Shown here: piece by piece, positions 18,074 through 26,381 of the stretch | Position numbering within the stretch: position 1 is the stretch's first letter | How the letters are laid out: every line of letters begins with the position of its first letter | NCBI GenBank assembly: GCA_001513045.1 | Contig: LFSB01000024.1 | Location: 69,549-127,526, forward strand | DNA length: 57,978 nucleotides | Direction: 5' to 3' | Source: Clostridiales bacterium DTU089 | Lineage (GTDB): Bacteria > Bacillota > Clostridia > Oscillospirales > Acutalibacteraceae | The notes under the pieces: model-generated | Told to the model about the DNA's origin: nothing | The model's database searches: none | What the model saw: only the letters and a program-made list of their open reading frames with translations | Translations under genes and position numbers: made by a program

Positions 18074-18091
18074 TTGTTAAATTTTTAACAG
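18074..18091 (+). promoter_or_regulatory. Rex operator in front of the hydrogenase operon
   Basis: TTGTTAA-ATTT-TTAACAG differs at one base from the clostridial Rex consensus TTGTTAA-N4-TTAACAA. It lies about 10-25 bases downstream of the predicted transcription start, where a bound repressor would block transcription. Rex releases DNA when the NADH/NAD+ ratio rises, which would switch on an NADH-oxidising hydrogenase. The rex gene itself is not in the window. Confidence 0.85.
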
Positions 18092-18667: not shown

Positions 18668-19039
18668 ATGAAAATCAGTGAAATTCAGCAGCTGCTCAAC
18701 GCAGATATCATCTGCGGCGGAGACTTTCTCGACCGCGATGTATATTCCGCCTGCGGCAGCGATATGATGAGCGACGTGCTCGCTTATGTAAAAGACCAGG
18801 GCGTTCTTCTGACCGGGCTTGTCAACCCTCAGGTTGTCCGCACAGCGGAAATGATGGACATGCGCTGCATAGTCTTTGTCCGCAACAAGCTGCCCAATGA
18901 AGAAATGGTCAAGCTCGCCGAGGACAACGCCATGGTGCTCATGGCAACCTCAAAAAGAATGTACGAAGCGTGCGGAAAGCTTTACTGTGCAGGCCTTGTC
19001 GGTAAGGCGACCGCAAAAAGCGGTGCCGGAAATGAATGA
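18668..19039 (+). CDS. DRTGG-domain protein (first copy)
   Basis: The 123-residue product is a stand-alone DRTGG domain: MKISEIQQLLNADIICGGDFLDRDVYSACGSDMMSDVLAY, then VLLTGLVNPQVVRTAEMMDMRCIVFVRNK and a final MVLMATSKRMYEACGKLY helix. DRTGG domains are found beside CBS domains and phosphotransacetylase-like enzymes and are thought to bind small ligands or nucleotides. Stand-alone versions recur next to HydS-type hydrogenases in clostridia. The next gene overlaps its last eight bases. Precise role unknown. Confidence 0.85.
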   Translation: MKISEIQQLLNADIICGGDFLDRDVYSACGSDMMSDVLAYVKDQGVLLTGLVNPQVVRTAEMMDMRCIVFVRNKLPNEEMVKLAEDNAMVLMATSKRMYEACGKLYCAGLVGKATAKSGAGNE

Positions 19040-19463
19040 GGTATTAAAGCTTCATTACGATGTTGACGGGGAGAACTTCACCTCAGCGGGGGATGCCTCT
19101 GTTAACGTAAAAAAGAAGCTCAGACAAATGGGATTCTCTCCCGACGTTATAAGACGCGTGTCAATCGCGATGTACGAGGGCGAGATAAATATGGTCATTC
19201 ACGCCTGCGGAGGCGAGGTCGATGTGTTCATATATCCCGAGGAGATTGACATAATCCTTGCGGATAAGGGCCCCGGCATTGCCGACGTGGAGCTTGCGAT
19301 GAAAGAGGGCTATTCCACAGCGCCGGACAACATCCGTTCGCTCGGCTTCGGTGCGGGAATGGGACTGCCCAATATGAAAAGATACTCCGATGAAATGAAG
19401 ATTGAATCCAAAGTCGGAGCAGGTACAAAAATCACCATGAAGGTTAAGGTGGCAGGAGAATAA
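19032..19463 (+). CDS. Anti-sigma-factor-like HATPase (RsbW/SpoIIAB type)
   Basis: The 143-residue protein has a GHKL-ATPase fold without a phosphoacceptor or receiver domain. RRVSIAMYEGEINMVIHA holds the N-box (Glu and Asn for Mg-ATP), DIILADKGPGI the G1 box, and GFGAGMGLPNMKRY the G2 box. The length matches RsbW/SpoIIAB switch kinases, which phosphorylate an antagonist or bind a sigma factor. No partner STAS protein is nearby, so it may instead signal with the DRTGG protein and HydS-like hydrogenase encoded next to it. ATG 19032 overlaps the DRTGG gene; the longer frame from 18876 lies within that gene. Confidence 0.85.
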   Translation: MNEVLKLHYDVDGENFTSAGDASVNVKKKLRQMGFSPDVIRRVSIAMYEGEINMVIHACGGEVDVFIYPEEIDIILADKGPGIADVELAMKEGYSTAPDNIRSLGFGAGMGLPNMKRYSDEMKIESKVGAGTKITMKVKVAGE

Positions 19464-19465
19464 GC

Positions 19466-20758
19466 ATGTCGGACTACAAGCATTCCGTCTCACTTGACAT
19501 CGAAAAATGCAAGGGCTGTACGAACTGCCTGAAACGCTGTCCCACGGAGGCTATCCGTATAAGGGACGGGCATGCCGCGATTAATTCCGCAAGGTGCATC
19601 GACTGCGGCATGTGCATAAGCGTTTGCCCCTATCAGGCAAAAAAGGCGGTTTATGACAAGCTCGATGAAATGAAGGGCTATAAGCTCAAAATTGCTCTGC
19701 CCGCACCCTCGTTGTACGGTCAGTTCGACAATCTCGATGATATCGACTACGTCGTTCAGGGTCTTCTCGATATGGGCTTTGACGAGGTTTACGAGGTTGC
19801 GCGCGCCGCAGAGCTTATATCCGACTATACAAGAAAATATCTGCTTGACGCAAATATAAAGCGTCCGGTAATCAGCTCCGCATGTCCTGCCGTTGTAAGG
19901 CTCATCAGTCTTCGCTTCCCCTTCCTGTGCGACAACATCATGCCCATTCTCCCCCCGGTGGAGCTTGCCGCCATGCTCGCGCGACAGGAGGCTGAAAAGA
20001 ATCACCCGGAGCTGAAGCCGGAGGAAATCTGCACCTGCTTCATTTCGCCGTGCCCCGCAAAGGTAAGCTACATCAAAAACGGAATTGACGGAGAAAAAAG
20101 TCAGGTCGATTTTGTGGTGTCGATGAGCGATGTATATTTTGCTCTGCTTGACGCGATGAACAAAAAGCGCGACCTGCCCCCCGCCGCATCCACGCAAACC
20201 GGCATGATAGGCGTAAGCTGGGCGGCAACCGGCGGAGAGGCAACAGCAATATTCAACGACAAATACCTTGCCGCGGACGGAATAGAAAATGTTATCCGTG
20301 TGCTTGAGCAAATCGACAACTCCGACTTCCCGAACCTCGAATTTATCGAGCTCAACGCCTGTCACGGCGGCTGTGTCGGCGGAGTTATGACGGTTGCCAA
20401 CCCGTATATCGCAAAGGCAAGGCTTCAGACTCTCAAAAGATATATGCCCGTGTCCCAGAGCTTCCGCTACGGCGAGTTCAAGGCGGTTCCCGATTACGTA
20501 TTCTCCGGCAAGGTTGAATACATACCTTACTCCGCCTTCGGAAACGACAGGAACGAAGCCATAAAAAAGATGGGACAGGTTCAGCAAATCTGCGACTCGC
20601 TTCCGAATCTTGACTGCGGCTCGTGCGGAGCACCCACATGCCTTGCGTTTGCAGAGGATATTGTCCGGGGCGAATGCTCTCAGGATGACTGCATAGTGAG
20701 CATGAGAAAGAAAATTCATGAGTACTTCAAAAACGCCGAGGAGCAAGATGAAAAATGA
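19466..20758 (+). CDS. hydS: HydS-like [FeFe]-hydrogenase (putative sensory, group C/D type)
   Basis: The 430-residue product has two N-terminal [4Fe-4S] sites (CKGCTNCLKRCP at 15-26 and CIDCGMCISVCP at about 44-55), an H-cluster domain, and a C-terminal extra [4Fe-4S] motif (LDCGSCGAPTCLAFAEDI). H-cluster motifs are altered compared with catalytic enzymes: L1 is SSACPAV instead of TSCCPGW, L2 is SPCPAKVSY instead of MPCTAKKFE, and L3 is ELNACHGGCVGGV. L2 and L3 cysteines are kept. Replacement in L1 and the lack of a PAS domain fit the putative sensory HydS-type enzymes, closest to what is called group D. Such genes are known to accompany group A3 hydrogenases. It may bind H2 and signal via the neighbouring HATPase. 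Confidence 0.88.
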   Translation: MSDYKHSVSLDIEKCKGCTNCLKRCPTEAIRIRDGHAAINSARCIDCGMCISVCPYQAKKAVYDKLDEMKGYKLKIALPAPSLYGQFDNLDDIDYVVQGLLDMGFDEVYEVARAAELISDYTRKYLLDANIKRPVISSACPAVVRLISLRFPFLCDNIMPILPPVELAAMLARQEAEKNHPELKPEEICTCFISPCPAKVSYIKNGIDGEKSQVDFVVSMSDVYFALLDAMNKKRDLPPAASTQTGMIGVSWAATGGEATAIFNDKYLAADGIENVIRVLEQIDNSDFPNLEFIELNACHGGCVGGVMTVANPYIAKARLQTLKRYMPVSQSFRYGEFKAVPDYVFSGKVEYIPYSAFGNDRNEAIKKMGQVQQICDSLPNLDCGSCGAPTCLAFAEDIVRGECSQDDCIVSMRKKIHEYFKNAEEQDEK

Positions 20759-21075
20759 AGGTTAACGATATCGTCACGAAGCTCTCGCTCGAAGTTCTCT
20801 GCGGCGACACCTCACGTGAGGCGGGCGGCTGCTACATCGGCGACCTGCTCAGCTGGGTAATGTCACATGCAAAATGCGACGACGTGTGGATAACCATAAT
20901 GTCAAACTCAAATGTCGTGGCGGTCGCGTCACTCGTTGACGCAGCGTGTGTAATAATCGCAGAGGGCGTAAAGCCCGACCCGGAGATTATCGCCCTCGCA
21001 CAGAGCAAGGATATCTGCCTTCTCGGCAGTGAAAAAACAGCGTTTGAGCTTGCGGCGCTGATGCCGGAGCTCTAA
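20755..21075 (+). CDS. DRTGG-like domain protein (second copy)
   Basis: The 106-residue protein parallels the first DRTGG protein in size and pattern: MKVNDIVTKLSLEVLCGDTSREAGGCYIGDLLSWVM, then VWITIMSNSNVVAVASLVDAACVIIAEG and a final CLLGSEKTAFELAALM. The two copies share the opening fold, the LLSWVM/VLAYVK helix and the terminal helix but are clearly diverged. It overlaps the hydS stop by four bases (ATGA), so it is coupled to hydS. No catalytic residues can be assigned. Confidence 0.78.
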   Translation: MKVNDIVTKLSLEVLCGDTSREAGGCYIGDLLSWVMSHAKCDDVWITIMSNSNVVAVASLVDAACVIIAEGVKPDPEIIALAQSKDICLLGSEKTAFELAALMPEL

Positions 21076-21102: not shown

Positions 21103-21831
21103 ATGCGGAAATACTTTTATGATATGCATATACACTCCTGTCTGTCCCCCTGCGGTGATGATGACATGACCCCTGCGAATATTGCAGGCATGGCGGCAAT
21201 TAACGGTTTGAATATTGTCGCGCTGTGCGACCACAACACCGTGAAAAACTGCCCGGCATTCTTTCACGCCTGCAAGGCAAACGGCATAATTCCCATTGCC
21301 GGAATGGAGCTTACCACCGCTGAGGACATTCACATTATATGCCTTTTCAAATCGCTTGATGCTGCCGTCGGTTTCGGTGAACAGGTTGATAAGAACAGAA
21401 ATCTTATTCCCAACCGCACAGACATCTTCGGCAATCAATATATAATCGACAGCGACGACAACATCGCCGGAACGGACGAAAACCTGTTGCCGAATGCGAC
21501 AAATCTTACACTTGAGCAAGGCGTTTGCCTCTGCCGCAGCCTCGGAGGCGTGTGCTATCCGGCACATGTCGACAGGCAGGCAAACGGTATAATCGCAACG
21601 CTCGGAACATTCCCCGATGAGCCGCATTTCTCCTGTGTCGAGTTCAATTGCGCGGAAAATATTGAGCCGTATCTGCAAAAATATCCGAATCTGCGCGACA
21701 AAAAAATTATTGTTTCGTCCGACGCGCACTACCTTTGGAACATAAACGAGGCGGACAACAGCTTTGAGCTTGACGATGAGCCGTACAGCAGCACGCTTGT
21801 GCGCGAAAGATTGTTTGAGGTGATAGGTTGA
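21103..21831 (+). CDS. PHP-domain phosphoesterase in the hydrogenase operon
   Basis: A 242-residue PHP-superfamily protein with its metal motifs: DMHIHSCLSPCGDDDMTP at the start, ALCDHNTVKNCP, GMELTTAEDIHI, CYPAHVDRQ and SSDAHYLW. It is a relative of trpH-type phosphoesterases, which cleave phosphate esters of nucleotides. Its fixed place between signalling ATPases and hydrogenase subunits is known in other clostridial A3/HydS loci, though its substrate is not. It could remove a nucleotide signal or a phosphate from a partner; this is inference. GGAGGGG precedes ATG 21103. Confidence 0.88.
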   Translation: MRKYFYDMHIHSCLSPCGDDDMTPANIAGMAAINGLNIVALCDHNTVKNCPAFFHACKANGIIPIAGMELTTAEDIHIICLFKSLDAAVGFGEQVDKNRNLIPNRTDIFGNQYIIDSDDNIAGTDENLLPNATNLTLEQGVCLCRSLGGVCYPAHVDRQANGIIATLGTFPDEPHFSCVEFNCAENIEPYLQKYPNLRDKKIIVSSDAHYLWNINEADNSFELDDEPYSSTLVRERLFEVIG

Positions 21832-22376
21832 AGGAATTATCACTTTATATCCTGGACATCACCGAAAACTCCACGAGAGCCGGTGCGAAAAACATTTCGC
21901 TCGAAATCACCGAGGAGGGTTCGCGGTTTTCCTTCAGCGTAAGCGATGACGGCTGCGGAATGAGTGAGGAAACCGTAAAAAAGCTTTCCGACCCGTTCTA
22001 CACCACGCGAACAACCAGAAAAGTCGGTCTGGGAATACCCTTTCTCCGGCTTGCAGCGGAGCAGACGGGCGGTCACATCGAAATAAGCTCCCGCTCGGCG
22101 GAGCAGTTTCCGGACACACACGGCACTAAAACCTCTGCGTTTTTCGATTCCTCGCACATAGATTTTGTTCCGCTCGGCGATATAATCTCAACTGTTGTAA
22201 CCCTGATTCAGGGCAATCCCGACACGGACTTTGTCTTCACTCATACTAAGGACGGCAAGCTTGTATCGCTCGATACAAAAGAGCTGCGAGCCGTGCTCGA
22301 AGGTGTGCCGCTTGACAGCTTTCCGGTGCTTGAATGGATACGCGAAAGCCTCAGCGAGCAATACAGTCAAATGTAA
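21828..22376 (+). CDS. Histidine kinase-like HATPase protein (second GHKL protein)
   Basis: The 182-residue product has a GHKL ATPase domain in its first 110 residues: LSLYILDITENSTRAGA (N-box), VSDDGCGM (G1), DPFYTTRTTRKVGLGIPFLR (G2-like, with the F-box style phenylalanine) and THGTKTSAFF near the end of the domain. About 70 residues of an unassigned C-terminal domain follow. No DHp helix or His phosphosite is present. It starts at TTG 21828 with a strong GAGGTGAT site and overlaps the PHP stop codon. Together with the RsbW-like gene it forms a duplicated kinase-like set around hydS. Confidence 0.85.
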   Translation: MKELSLYILDITENSTRAGAKNISLEITEEGSRFSFSVSDDGCGMSEETVKKLSDPFYTTRTTRKVGLGIPFLRLAAEQTGGHIEISSRSAEQFPDTHGTKTSAFFDSSHIDFVPLGDIISTVVTLIQGNPDTDFVFTHTKDGKLVSLDTKELRAVLEGVPLDSFPVLEWIRESLSEQYSQM

Positions 22377-22435
22377 AAAGCGTATAATTTTTTAAAAATT
22401 ATTATATATCCAACTATATGAAGGGAGTACTAATC

Positions 22436-22807
22436 ATGAAATCATTGGAAGAACTCGCCGCAATCAGAGACAAAATGAAGGGCAAGGTTTCACTGCGTGA
22501 GGGCGAAAACGCAATACGCGTTGTCGTGGGTATGGCTACCTGCGGTATCTCCGCCGGAGCGCGTCCCGTGCTCAACGCCTTTGTTGAGGAGGTCTCAAAC
22601 GCCGGCCTTTCCGACAGCGTAACCGTCACCCAGACGGGCTGCATCGGTATCTGCCAGTTTGAGCCCGTTGTAGAGGTCTTTGAAACGGGTAAGGAAAAGG
22701 TAACCTATGTAAAAATGACCGCCGAAAAGGCAAAGCGTATTGTTGATGAGCACATCAAGGGCGGCAAGGTCGTTGCCGAATACACCATCGGTAACACGAA
22801 GCTTTAA
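22436..22807 (+). CDS. Thioredoxin-fold [2Fe-2S] ferredoxin
   Basis: The 123-residue protein is a stand-alone [2Fe-2S] ferredoxin of the type fused to the N-terminus of HydB/NuoF. Cluster cysteines are in GMATCGISAGA and TQTGCIGICQFEP. The first pair is less complete than in the HydB N-terminal domain, with a GISAGA stretch where a second Cys is often found, so four ligands should be checked by alignment. It likely relays electrons to the HydABC complex. AAGGGAG lies 8 bases before ATG 22436. It is followed after 16 bases by hydB. Confidence 0.88.
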   Translation: MKSLEELAAIRDKMKGKVSLREGENAIRVVVGMATCGISAGARPVLNAFVEEVSNAGLSDSVTVTQTGCIGICQFEPVVEVFETGKEKVTYVKMTAEKAKRIVDEHIKGGKVVAEYTIGNTKL

Positions 22808-22823: not shown

Positions 22824-24617
22824 ATGATACGTTCACATGTTTTAATCTGCGGCGGAACCGGCTGCACCTCATCGGGCAGCGCTTCTCTGCAGAAGGCTCT
22901 TGCAAACGAGCTTACACTCAAGGGACTTGAAGATGAAATCAAAATCGTCCAGACGGGCTGCTTCGGCCTTTGCGCGCTCGGTCCGATAATGATTGTCTAT
23001 CCTGAGGGAACCTTCTATTGCAAGGTAAAGGAATCCGATATCCCCGAAATCGTCGAGGAGCATCTGCTCAAGGGCAGAATTGTCTCCCGCCTTGTATATG
23101 ACGAGGCAGCGGAGGGTCACAAGGACGGCCCTGCATCACTCAGCGAAACCGCTTTCTACAAAAAGCAAATGCGTCTTGCGCTTCGCAACTGCGGCGTTAT
23201 CAATCCCGAGGTCATTGACGAGTACATCGCCATGGACGGCTATGCCGCACTCGGAAAGGTTCTTACCGAGATGAAGCCCGAGGATGTCATCAAAATCATC
23301 AGCGACAGCGGACTTCGCGGCAGAGGCGGCGGAGGATTCCCCACCGGACGCAAATGGAGCTTTGCGGCTGCAAACGCTTCGGATAAGAAGTATGTTGTAT
23401 GTAACGCAGACGAGGGCGACCCCGGTGCGTTCATGGACCGCTCCGTGCTTGAGGGCGACCCTCACGCGGTGCTTGAGGCAATGGCAATAGCCGGTTATGC
23501 TATCGGCGCGGATGAGGGCTACATATATGTCCGTGCGGAGTATCCCATCGCAATAAAGCGTCTTCAGATAGCCATTGAGCAGGCAAGAGAATACAACCTT
23601 CTCGGCAAGGATATATTCGGAACAGGCTTTAACTTCGATATAAAAATCCGCCTCGGCGCCGGCGCATTCGTATGCGGCGAGGAAACCGCCCTTCTTGCAT
23701 CCATAGAAGGCCGCAGAGGTGAGCCCCGTCCGCGTCCTCCGTTCCCGGCTGTAAAGGGACTTTTCGGAAAGCCCACCATAATCAACAACGTTGAAACATA
23801 CGCAAACGTATGCCAGATAATCCTCAAGGGTGCTGACTGGTTCAGCTCCATCGGTACGGAAAAGAGCAAGGGCACAAAGGTGTTTGCTCTCGGCGGAAAA
23901 ATCAAGCACACCGGACTTGTTGAGGTTCCCATGGGCACAACGCTGCGCGAGATAATCGAAGAAATCGGCGGCGGCATTCCCAACGGCAAGAAGTTCAAGG
24001 CAGCTCAGACGGGCGGCCCCTCCGGCGGCTGCATTCCCGCAAGCCTTATAGACACCCCCATCGACTACGACAACCTTATAGCCATCGGCTCAATGATGGG
24101 CTCCGGCGGACTCATAGTCATGGATGAGGACAACTGCATGGTCGATATCGCCAAGTTCTTCCTCGACTTTACAGTCGGCGAGTCCTGCGGTAAATGTACT
24201 GCCTGCCGCGTAGGCACAAAGCGTCTTTATGAGATGCTTGAAAAAATCACAAGCGGCAACGGAACCCTTGAGGACCTCGACAAGATGGAGGAGCTTTGCT
24301 ACTACATCAAGAACAACTCTCTGTGCGGACTCGGCCAGACCGCTCCCAACCCCGTGCTCTCCACGCTCAACCGCTTCCGCGATGAATACATCGCCCATGT
24401 GGTTGACAAGAAGTGCCCGGCAGGCGTCTGCAAGGGACTGCTCGCCTACGAGATACTCGCCGACAAGTGCAAGAGCTGCTCGCTTTGTGCAAAAAATTGC
24501 CCCGTCGGTGCAATTTCAGGCGAAAAAGGCGTACCCTATGTAATAGACAAATCAAAATGCATCAAGTGCGGCGTATGTATGGAAAAATGTAAATTCGGCG
24601 CAGTTGTAAAGAAGTAA
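22824..24617 (+). CDS. hydB: NADH- and FMN-binding subunit of the [FeFe]-hydrogenase (HydB, NuoF-like)
   Basis: The 597-residue subunit has the full HydB layout. An N-terminal thioredoxin-like [2Fe-2S] domain (ICGGTGCTSSGS ... TGCFGLCALGP) comes first. The NuoF core follows, with the FMN/NADH glycine loop RGRGGGGFPTGRKW and CNADEGDPGAFMDR. An SLBB-type stretch is next, then the [4Fe-4S] motif ESCGKCTACRVGTKRLYEML. The C-terminal 2[4Fe-4S] ferredoxin domain has CKSCSLCAKNCP and CIKCGVCMEKC. HydB binds NAD(H) and is the proposed bifurcation site in trimeric A3 enzymes. ATG 22824 follows GGAGGGT; the longer frame from 22740 is within the ferredoxin gene. Confidence 0.96.
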   Translation: MIRSHVLICGGTGCTSSGSASLQKALANELTLKGLEDEIKIVQTGCFGLCALGPIMIVYPEGTFYCKVKESDIPEIVEEHLLKGRIVSRLVYDEAAEGHKDGPASLSETAFYKKQMRLALRNCGVINPEVIDEYIAMDGYAALGKVLTEMKPEDVIKIISDSGLRGRGGGGFPTGRKWSFAAANASDKKYVVCNADEGDPGAFMDRSVLEGDPHAVLEAMAIAGYAIGADEGYIYVRAEYPIAIKRLQIAIEQAREYNLLGKDIFGTGFNFDIKIRLGAGAFVCGEETALLASIEGRRGEPRPRPPFPAVKGLFGKPTIINNVETYANVCQIILKGADWFSSIGTEKSKGTKVFALGGKIKHTGLVEVPMGTTLREIIEEIGGGIPNGKKFKAAQTGGPSGGCIPASLIDTPIDYDNLIAIGSMMGSGGLIVMDEDNCMVDIAKFFLDFTVGESCGKCTACRVGTKRLYEMLEKITSGNGTLEDLDKMEELCYYIKNNSLCGLGQTAPNPVLSTLNRFRDEYIAHVVDKKCPAGVCKGLLAYEILADKCKSCSLCAKNCPVGAISGEKGVPYVIDKSKCIKCGVCMEKCKFGAVVKK

Positions 24618-24632
24618 GGAGGAGCGGAAACA

Positions 24633-26381
24633 ATGGCAAACGTAAATATAAAAATCAACGGCAAGGATTATTCCGTACCCGCCGGCGTAACGATTCTCGA
24701 GGCAGCAAAAATGGCGGGAATTGAAATTCCCACCCTGTGCTACCTCAAGGACATAAATGAAATAGGCGCATGCCGCATGTGCGTTGTAGAGGTAAAGGGC
24801 GCAAGAAGCCTTGTCGCCTCCTGCGTATATCCGGTAAACGAGGGTCTTGAGGTTGTAACCAACAGCCCCGCCGTCGTAAAATCCAGAAAAACCACCCTTG
24901 AGCTTATTCTTTCCACACATAACAAGCGTTGCCTTTCTTGCGTGCGCTCCGAAACCTGCGAGCTTCAGAGACTCTGCAAGGACTACGGCGTTGAGGATGA
25001 AAACCGCTATCGCGGTGAGATGCCCGAGTCTGAAATCGACCGCTCGGCTGCTCACATGTACCGCGACAACAGCAAGTGCATACTCTGCCGCCGCTGCGTG
25101 GCAGCCTGCAACAAGGTTCAGTCCGTATCCGTCATAGGCGCCAACGAAAGAGGCTTCAAGACTCACATCGGCTGTGCTTTCGAGGCAGACCTCGCAGAGG
25201 TTGCCTGCGTATCCTGCGGCCAGTGCATAGCTGCCTGCCCGACAGGCGCACTCTCGGAGAGAGACGACACCCAGAAGGTGTTCGACGCTATCAGCGACCC
25301 CGACAAGTTTGTTATCGTACAGACCGCTCCCGCGACGAGAGTCGGACTCGGTGACGAGTTCGGATTCCCCGAGGGCGAGATAGTCACCGGAAAGATGGTC
25401 GCCGCGCTGAAAATGCTCGGCTTCGACAAGGTGTTTGATACCAACTTCACTGCCGACCTCACAATCATGGAGGAGGCAACCGAGTTCCTCGGAAGATATG
25501 CTTCAAAGCAGAATCTTCCTCTCATCACCTCCTGCTCACCCGGATGGATAAAGTTCTGCGAGCACAACTATCCCGAATTCATAGACAACCTCTCCTCCTG
25601 CAAATCCCCGCAAGGCATGTTCGGCTCGGTTGCAAAAACCTATTATGCCGAGAAGCTCGGAATTGACCCCAAGAACATGTTTGTTGTCAGCATCATGCCC
25701 TGCACAGCCAAGAAGTTTGAGGCTGAGCGCCTTGACTACACCGCGGTAAAGGGACTTGCGGACATTGATGCAGCGCTCACCACAAGAGAGCTTGCCAGAA
25801 TGATAAAGAAGACCGGAATCTCCTTTAAGGAGCTTGCGGACGAGCAGTACGACAAGCCCTTCGGACTCGGCAGCGGCGCCGGCACAATCTTCGGAGCCAC
25901 CGGCGGTGTTATGGAGGCTGCACTTCGTACCGCTTATGAAGTGCTCACCGGCGAAACTCTTGAAGCGCTTGACTTCACCGATGTCAGAGGCACAGACGGC
26001 ATCAAGGAAGCCACCTACACCATCGCAGGCAACGAAATCCGCGTAGCAGTGGCGTCCGGACTCGGCAATGCAAGGGCACTCCTCGATATGGTTAAGAGCG
26101 GCGAGAAGAAGTATGATTTCATTGAAATTATGGCATGCCCCGGCGGCTGCGTAAACGGCGGCGGACAGCCCATAAAGAATGCTTCCTACCGTAACTTCGC
26201 CAAGGATATCAGAGAGGTTCGCGCAGCGGGACTTTACAAGGATGACAAGGCGTTGCCCGTAAGAAAATCACATGAAAATGAGGATGTCAAGGCTGTATAT
26301 GCCGAGTACTTCGACAAGCCCGGCAGCCACAAGGCTCATGAGATTCTTCACACCGGCTACACCGTAAGACCGAAATATTAA
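24633..26381 (+). CDS. hydA: Catalytic subunit of NADH-linked [FeFe]-hydrogenase, group A3 (HydA)
   Basis: The 582-residue protein carries, in order: an N-terminal ubiquitin-like [2Fe-2S] domain (Cys36, 47, 50, 64), a His/Cys [4Fe-4S] site (HNKRCLSCVRSETCELQRLC), a 2[4Fe-4S] domain (CILCRRCVAACN, CVSCGQCIAACP), the H-cluster domain and the small-subunit-like C-terminus. H-cluster motifs are TSCSPGW (L1), MPCTAKKFE (L2) and MACPGGCVNGGGQ (L3). L1 has Ser in place of the second Cys, which I recall as frequent in A3 relatives. It lacks the C-terminal [2Fe-2S] extension present in some HydA proteins. With HydB and HydC it should produce H2 from NADH plus reduced ferredoxin. Confidence 0.96.
   Translation: MANVNIKINGKDYSVPAGVTILEAAKMAGIEIPTLCYLKDINEIGACRMCVVEVKGARSLVASCVYPVNEGLEVVTNSPAVVKSRKTTLELILSTHNKRCLSCVRSETCELQRLCKDYGVEDENRYRGEMPESEIDRSAAHMYRDNSKCILCRRCVAACNKVQSVSVIGANERGFKTHIGCAFEADLAEVACVSCGQCIAACPTGALSERDDTQKVFDAISDPDKFVIVQTAPATRVGLGDEFGFPEGEIVTGKMVAALKMLGFDKVFDTNFTADLTIMEEATEFLGRYASKQNLPLITSCSPGWIKFCEHNYPEFIDNLSSCKSPQGMFGSVAKTYYAEKLGIDPKNMFVVSIMPCTAKKFEAERLDYTAVKGLADIDAALTTRELARMIKKTGISFKELADEQYDKPFGLGSGAGTIFGATGGVMEAALRTAYEVLTGETLEALDFTDVRGTDGIKEATYTIAGNEIRVAVASGLGNARALLDMVKSGEKKYDFIEIMACPGGCVNGGGQPIKNASYRNFAKDIREVRAAGLYKDDKALPVRKSHENEDVKAVYAEYFDKPGSHKAHEILHTGYTVRPKY

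Follow-up and report, generated by a model that had tools for sequence, protein, structure and literature searches.

The window, i.e., the whole 57,978-nucleotide stretch of DNA analysed here, carries a group D (M2e) [FeFe]-hydrogenase, HydS, in a conserved, fusion-linked gene cassette. We propose that HydS senses H2 (or H2/redox) as a subunit of a DRTGG1–HAT1–HydS–DRTGG2 complex that, with PHP and HAT2, tunes the HydABC hydrogenase, and we put the probability of this reading at about one half. The group D class and its C-terminal cluster have already been published, and the HydS protein taken alone is of an ordinary, known kind. The newness lies in the genomic setting: the conserved cassette linked by fusions, a DRTGG domain where group C has PAS, and an alternative input through CBS. 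No description of a DRTGG–GHKL–HydS cassette was found in the open-access literature, most subscription papers and preprints being outside that scope. In the accessible text of that literature, DRTGG appears with hydrogenase only in a Desulfovibrio mutant library study.

The operon is arranged as follows.

18074..18091, + strand: Rex-like operator TTGTTAAATTTTTAACAG, one mismatch to TTGTTAANNNNTTAACAA, 36 bases before the hydC start codon
18128..18625, + strand: hydC, NuoE-like [2Fe-2S] thioredoxin-like subunit (PF01257, E 3.1e-54)
18668..19039, + strand: DRTGG protein 1 (DRTGG1), 123 aa (PF07085, E 5.3e-5)
19032..19463, + strand: HAT1, SpoIIAB/RsbW-like GHKL ATPase (ATP-site motifs, sequence and fold comparison)
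19466..20758, + strand: HydS, group D [FeFe]-hydrogenase, 430 aa, ATG to stop
20755..21075, + strand: DRTGG protein 2 (DRTGG2), 106 aa (PF07085, E 4.3e-8)
21103..21831, + strand: PHP-family metal phosphoesterase, 242 aa (PF02811, E 1e-9)
21828..22376, + strand: HAT2, histidine-kinase-type GHKL ATPase without a phosphoacceptor domain
22418..22807, + strand: thioredoxin-like [2Fe-2S] protein in a HydD/HndB-like position (PF01257, E 6.4e-5, just under the cut-off)
22824..24617, + strand: hydB, NuoF-like flavin subunit (the ORF opens at 22740; 22824 is the likely start)
24633..26381, + strand: hydA, catalytic [FeFe]-hydrogenase, NCBIfam group A6 (NF040763, 901 bits; cut-off 765)

The HydABC genes, the two DRTGG genes, the two HATPase genes and the PHP gene share one strand and are separated by gaps of 2–42 bases or overlap by 4–8 bases; the start of DRTGG2 overlaps the hydS stop by 4 bases. 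The earlier note had placed a second hydrogenase within a HydABC operon. This is the case: hydS is on the operon's strand, and the genome (95.64% complete) has two Fe_hyd_lg_C matches, HydS and the HydA of the same operon.

Within HydS, the following elements are recognized.

19508..19627, + strand: N-terminal 2x[4Fe-4S] ferredoxin cysteines, C15–C54 (Pfam and alignment)
19874..19888, + strand: L1 motif SSACP, residues 137–141, with Ala at the proton-transfer Cys position
20045..20062, + strand: L2 motif SPCPAK, residues 194–199
20354..20374, + strand: L3 motif NACHGGC, residues 297–303
20615..20692, + strand: C-terminal Cx2Cx4Cx16C [4Fe-4S] motif, C384/C387/C392/C409 (PF04060)

The Pfam domains are a Fer4 pair (residues 9–58), Fe_hyd_lg_C (76–306, E 1.7e-28) and the FeS domain (379–410, E 5.9e-13). 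No PAS domain is present among the Pfam families at E ≤ 0.01, which agrees with the earlier note, as does the retention of the L2 and L3 cysteines. Residues C140, C196, C299 and C303 are invariant in 26 of 26 and 40 of 40 alignment rows, the window protein being counted in both; the 26-row alignment, A1, combines the window protein with 25 of the 57 other HydS loci among L004–L060. We take these four cysteines to be the [4Fe-4S]H ligands, a role carried over from CpI with which the alignments agree. The AlphaFold model (430 aa, mean pLDDT 86.8) matches [FeFe]-hydrogenases in the PDB, the best at E 5.9e-18 and TM 0.65 by query length. Because the ligand cysteines are invariant (40 of 40) and the model matches hydrogenase folds, a degenerate H-cluster site is not favored, and neither result speaks against the site holding its [4Fe-4S] part.

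In the SSACP of L1, the cubane-binding cysteine is kept and alanine replaces the proton-transfer cysteine, an exchange reported for groups C and D (PMC10407848). The earlier note had contrasted SSACP with a TSCCP of catalytic enzymes. The HydS half of that contrast stands, but TSCCP is not universal among catalytic enzymes: the operon's own HydA (24633–26381) carries TSCSP, as do all 106 HydAs found beside HydS. Reading this TSCSP as a defect was rejected, as A. woodii HydA1 has TSCSP too. Similarly, the C-terminal Fe–S motif is present, with the Cx2Cx4Cx16C spacing reported for TamHydS, yet it was not gained by this protein, the cluster being described as common to groups C and D (PMC13104023).

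A quick IQ-TREE phylogeny of 77 rows included the window protein and 36 of the 160 non-window D loci; groups A and B were labelled from NCBIfam and gene context, and group C from PAS (Pfam). A single branch (SH-aLRT 100) divides the 37 group D rows, among them the window protein and the protein of locus L146, from all others. Another 16 rows, those with PAS and the remaining C-type ones, group separately (SH-aLRT 99). HydS thus lies inside the group D clade, and not outside the HydS-type clades. Membership in group C is ruled out by the tree, and no PAS or other signalling domain is on the chain; membership in group B is ruled out by the tree and domains.

TamHydS, the group D/M2e enzyme of Thermoanaerobacter mathranii, is represented in the tree by L146. 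At all 16 of the published TamHydS residues, the L146 protein has the same amino acid under the same residue number, against 10 for the runner-up; therefore, L146 is treated as TamHydS or a near relative, a probable identity drawn from these residues. TamHydS residues A137, E252, E289, D265, C379, D378 and D403 correspond to A139, E258, E295, D271, C384, D383 and D408 in the window protein. These include the proton-path glutamates and the aspartates next to the C-terminal cluster. Ala in place of CpI C299, a Glu found only in group D at E252 and a Glu at E289 (TamHydS numbering) are reported as group D features (PMC10407848), and in the alignment HydS has all three, A139, E258 and E295. Tree, residues and domain order together assign HydS to group D, so the earlier suggestion of a putative sensory, group D-type enzyme is borne out. 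The same note's view that such enzymes are little studied is not, TamHydS having been characterized in several papers (PMC8163306, PMC10407848, PMC13104023).

The likeness of window HydS to TamHydS extends over the domain order, the Ala for the proton-transfer Cys, the Glu pair of the proposed proton path and the Cx2Cx4Cx16C cluster. The gene neighbors of L146 HydS are also those of the window, with a HATPase gene upstream and DRTGG and HydABC genes downstream. Differences are found at the start of L3 (NAC in the window, LAC in L146) and in the position of HydC, which precedes the cassette in the window but follows PHP in L146. A gene beside TamHydS has been reported as an AraC-type regulator. 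The six genes around L146 HydS include DRTGG, HATPase and PHP genes, and Pfam finds no AraC-type domain in any of the six at E ≤ 1. Provided that L146 is TamHydS, the reported AraC-type neighbor is likely a mislabelled DRTGG protein.

The neighboring clade holds the group C sensory hydrogenases (TmHydS, R. albus HydS, HfsB; PAS, PAS-HK and MCP forms), which share with window HydS the Fer4 pair, the H-domain and the C-terminal FeS cluster. In group C, the PAS or other signalling domain is on the chain, whereas the cassette encodes its outputs as proteins of their own, DRTGG being fused to HydS at that position in two loci. Several other domain combinations were seen in passing. Directly after HydS in L149 (5932–7842, − strand), Pfam finds a 637-aa protein with H-domain, FeS and MCP parts, absent from the tree rows, which resembles the chemotaxis-linked group C2 type as reported (PMC9431212); L174 has a neighbor of the same length, and CheW beside HAT1. 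At L232 (1453–3693, + strand), and as the same gene in L271, H-domain and FeS are fused to a sigma-54 activator with a Fis-type HTH, the gene lying between a CBS-DRTGG pyrophosphatase-type gene and HydC-HydB-HydA genes. At L233 (1357–3861, + strand), H-domain and FeS are fused to GAF domains beside HydABC-like genes, and L277 has a longer ORF of this type with a HATPase-like match. HydS also occurs in five actinobacteria-titled contigs (L093, L095, L114, L116 and L122; Coriobacteriales, Atopobiaceae), at 57–61% identity to window HydS. In the tree, two of these, L093 and L116, are embedded in a set of Clostridia sequences; either transfer between phyla or mis-binned contigs would account for such loci.

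The cassette was compared across 161 loci (two sets of 80 and the window; at least one contig, judged by length and place, is counted twice, as L061 and L207), with only those loci counted that have enough flank. The order DRTGG1–HAT1–HydS–DRTGG2–PHP recurs. HAT1 lies beside HydS at 147 of 150 loci, all but L180, L181 and L183. DRTGG genes are found upstream of HydS at 138 of 150 and downstream at 141 of 147, and PHP is present at 134 of 147. Six loci (L149, L151, L152, L155, L174, L203) lack both the downstream DRTGG and PHP. The coupling of HydS to DRTGG, HATPase and PHP genes pointed out in the earlier note is therefore conserved across many genomes of the phylum. Among the 115 wide-flank loci, HAT2 is nearby at 104, and HydA is on the same strand at 86, on the opposite strand at 4 and not seen at 25. 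The last figure is an upper bound owing to the score limit, since L193, L194 and L197, which are among these 25, have a HydA labelled on the opposite strand. At many loci phylum-wide, PHP is followed by HydC–HAT2–TrxF–HydB–HydA. HydC takes the first position in the window and in many near relatives, which puts the cassette within the HydABC genes. Because some copies are divergent or unlinked, the cassette seems to be an independent unit.

Natural fusions, each a single ORF, connect members of the cassette. DRTGG1–HAT1 fusions occur at seven loci in three families (L157, L159, L160, L162, L165, L167, L189), HAT1–HydS at one locus (L200), HydS–DRTGG2 at two loci of one family (L166, L179), and PHP–HAT2 at four loci of one family (L191, L193, L194, L197). 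Pfam confirms the L166 fusion as Fer4–H-domain–FeS–DRTGG, and L166 additionally encodes a C-type protein with FeS–PAS–HisKA–HATPase. Thus, past the FeS cluster, one class has PAS and a kinase, and the other has DRTGG, with its kinase-like ATPase encoded by the adjoining gene. Judged by domain order, the fused DRTGG occupies the position of the group C PAS. Distance matrices of 44 loci correlate HydS with HydA (0.76), HAT1 (0.71) and PHP (0.78); as HydA correlates equally well, this measure is non-discriminating and was set aside as proof of the cassette by co-evolution.

Of 398 genomes sampled from the phylum, 161 have HydS (E ≤ 1e-40) and 169 have HAT1, the latter count following removal of eight weak matches (about 1e-15 to 1e-23) from 177. 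Both are present in 159 genomes, HydS alone in 2, HAT1 alone in 10 and neither in 227 (Fisher p 6e-96, uncorrected for genome relatedness). HAT2 matches at E ≤ 1e-30 in 169 of the 398.

A further 16 HAT1 loci, mostly outside known HydS cassettes (L259–L270, L273–L276), show what else HAT1 keeps company with. HydS is beside HAT1 in four (L267–L270). Of the 12 without HydS there, seven have a CBS pair (L261–L266, L274) and five have neither (L259, L260, L273, L275, L276). HAT1–CBS pair fusions number ten ORFs, five of them run against Pfam, and seven of the ten are in the HydS-less cassettes. L264 also has a 399-aa match to the HydS profile several kilobases from HAT1. The CBS-bearing cassette of L274 adjoins HydABC, those of L261 and L263 adjoin an Rnf-type set (in L261, RnfC and RnfB-like by Pfam, the rest by size and order), L268 has CBS, HydS and a gene set of similar size to that one, and L259 is near RnfC-like, formate–THF ligase, NfnB-like and cytochrome genes. 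L265 adjoins cell-shape genes; therefore, the link to redox enzymes is not universal. CBS and DRTGG also come together in CBS-pyrophosphatases (Pfam of the L271 protein; 3l31 and 3l2b matches), the CBS domains of which are reported to bind adenine nucleotides (PMC10742508, PMC11172384). Unlike those enzymes, the cassettes have CBS fused to the GHKL ATPase and DRTGG mostly on separate chains.

These loci allow a broader and more tentative proposal, one that we would sooner expect to fail than to hold: the repeated unit DRTGG–GHKL–DRTGG–PHP–GHKL may be a general controller, with exchangeable sensors, of the ferredoxin/NAD energy enzymes of anaerobic Bacillota. Its inputs would be HydS for H2 or the CBS pair for adenine nucleotides, and its targets HydABC, Rnf and RnfC/Nfn-like sets. 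In A. woodii, HydE is reported beside hydC (PMC3315566), and in C. aceticum a 'sensor histidine kinase' is reported at rnf and an 'HPr kinase' at the fdh cluster (PMC7911925); going by these descriptions, all could possibly be cassette parts. The A. woodii HydE is an ATPase whose gene lies between hydC and hydD, as HAT2 does at many loci (PMC3315566, PMC10472528). The likeness is one of position and description, and the five-gene hyd operon, as reported, differs in having no HydS or DRTGG gene.

The individual proteins suggest how a signal might be passed on. HAT1 has a GHKL fold with N, G1 and G2 boxes, including the catalytic Glu-Asn, and its ATP-site motifs YExExN, DxGPGI and GFGAGMGL are complete. 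SpoIIAB is its nearest relative both by sequence (E 9.6e-11) and by fold (E 1.6e-12, TM 0.79/0.81). Fold and ATP-site motifs are those of the SpoIIAB/RsbW anti-sigma serine kinases, but against the curated NCBIfam families HAT1 scores below the cut-offs for anti-sigma F (TIGR01925, 62.1 vs 135) and RsbW (29.6 vs 145), and its invariant GFGAGMGL is not seen in the aligned SpoIIAB. STAS proteins and sigma factors are the usual partners of SpoIIAB/RsbW-type ATPases, and Pfam finds neither among the ten operon genes. DRTGG1 scores 23.4 bits for PF07085, just under the Pfam cut-off of 25.2, while its aligned orthologue in L146 passes. The PHP metal-site motifs, the ligands of which are assigned on our assumption, are conserved in alignment. 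Alignments A6 and A7 took every second usable locus of L061–L140 (39 and 38; L113 was omitted from A7), and A3 (21 rows, L185 omitted) and A5 (22 rows, L144 omitted) were chosen for spread.

For TamHydS, slow H2 turnover (PMC10407848, PMC8163306) and an H2-induced structural change have been reported. By analogy, binding of H2, or reduction, at the slow H-cluster site with its Cys-to-Ala exchange would alter the conformation of HydS, and the change would be relayed through the C-terminal region to DRTGG2, standing in for the group C PAS domain, and to HAT1. HAT1 would act as a SpoIIAB-like serine/threonine protein kinase and PHP as the opposing phosphatase, and HAT2, a companion of HydC-HydB-HydA, would be the point of contact with the bifurcating hydrogenase. 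We infer the physical complex, these two activities, the target and the direction of control. The output is likely an adjusted activity or assembly of HydABC rather than transcription of the operon, the latter bearing a Rex-type operator. The operator, TTGTTAAATTTTTAACAG, is the only match in the window with at most one mismatch to TTGTTAANNNNTTAACAA, which we take as the Rex consensus. At up to three mismatches, the window has 2 Rex-like sites against 3.06 expected by chance. Since this is no excess, the case for the operator draws on its position, on there being one mismatch only, and on enrichment upstream of first genes, where 41 of 153 regions have such sites against 9.6 expected from mononucleotide shuffles, a simple control. 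The genome also encodes a protein with a Rex-type N-terminal domain. With operator and gene both present, operon transcription may respond to NADH/NAD, and H2 sensing would then be left to regulate the enzyme itself. A scan for promoters and terminators added nothing to this picture.

In favor of HydS as the sensing subunit we count the group D branch, the conservation of the cassette, the fusions, the co-occurrence, the likeness of HAT1 to SpoIIAB, the swap to CBS, and outputs carried on the same scaffold by C-type relatives, i.e., PAS-HisKA-HATPase and a sigma-54 activator (Pfam), both of which fall in the C-type clade of the tree, and also an MCP domain. Against it we count the lack of a STAS or sigma partner in the operon, the distance correlation, the absence of HydE, HydF and HydG matches over cut-off in the window genome, the small number of fusion families, the 29 of 115 wide-flank loci without a same-strand HydA, and the loci missing DRTGG2 and PHP or HAT1. 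A. woodii HydE is moreover reported outside the active enzyme (PMC3315566).

The affinity of HAT1, in fold and sequence, to anti-sigma F could instead mean that it controls a sigma factor or regulator elsewhere by partner switching in the RsbW/SpoIIAB style, in response to H2. The fusion of a group C-type relative to a sigma-54 activator fits such an output, and in one family (L149, L152, L155, L174) HAT1-HydS adjoins a response regulator-like gene and a large HATPase-bearing gene; Pfam identifies an OmpR-type regulator in L149 and L155, a sensor kinase in L149 and CheW in L174. We nevertheless consider a transcriptional switch unlikely. The operon has neither a STAS antagonist nor a sigma factor, HAT1 falls well below the anti-sigma F cut-off, and at most loci the recurring neighbors of the cassette are hydrogenase genes, not regulators. 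It is slightly more doubtful that the ATPases, DRTGG proteins and PHP assemble, mature or disassemble HydABC (or Rnf), with HydS checking redox state or donating electrons. The A. woodii authors proposed assembly or signalling for HydE (PMC3315566), and no match over cut-off to the known maturases HydE, HydF and HydG was seen in the window genome (95.6% complete), the only one searched for HydF. Group D HydS is present in 27 of 40 relatives searched for HydG, the window genome included, and seven of these 27 lack HydG over cut-off: the window genome (G000), G401, G413, G420, G436, G445 and G446. The HydE search covered 12 deliberately picked genomes, i.e., these seven and five others. HydE over cut-off is missing from the same seven (G446 has a weaker match, 161 vs 254.6 bits), six of which are at least 93% complete, and is present in all five others. 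Either a shared assembly gap, a different maturation in this branch or no maturation would explain the absence. Yet HydG is over cut-off in 20 of the 27 HydS-bearing genomes, and G404, G419, G442 and G443 have HydE as well; cassettes also adjoin Rnf-type or unrelated genes, and the CBS swap resembles ligand sensing. Least probable, to our minds, is that HydS is merely a slow hydrogenase moving electrons for HydABC as a metabolic bleed valve, its neighbors being unrelated. The slow turnover of TamHydS and the HydS–HydA correlation would suit such a valve, but the fusions of HydS to HAT1 and DRTGG and the presence of HAT1 in 159 of 161 HydS genomes are hard to explain by it, and HydS is retained at loci without a visible nearby HydA.

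A group D paper of April 2026 describes finding the interaction partners of HydS as critical for the signalling mechanism (PMC13104023). The cassette proteins are testable candidate partners for H2 signalling by group D HydS, with natural fusions already identified, and the regulator reported next to TamHydS was perhaps mislabelled. If the absence of HydE and HydG is real, the [FeFe]-hydrogenases of these genomes would be without known maturases. HydS-bearing genomes make up 161 of the 398 sampled, and the titles of the named loci are largely of gut and rumen samples, where the H2 level steers fermentation. Should the proposal of a sensor-swappable controller be true, the cassette would represent a signalling system still without a name, with group D hydrogenases as one of its exchangeable inputs.
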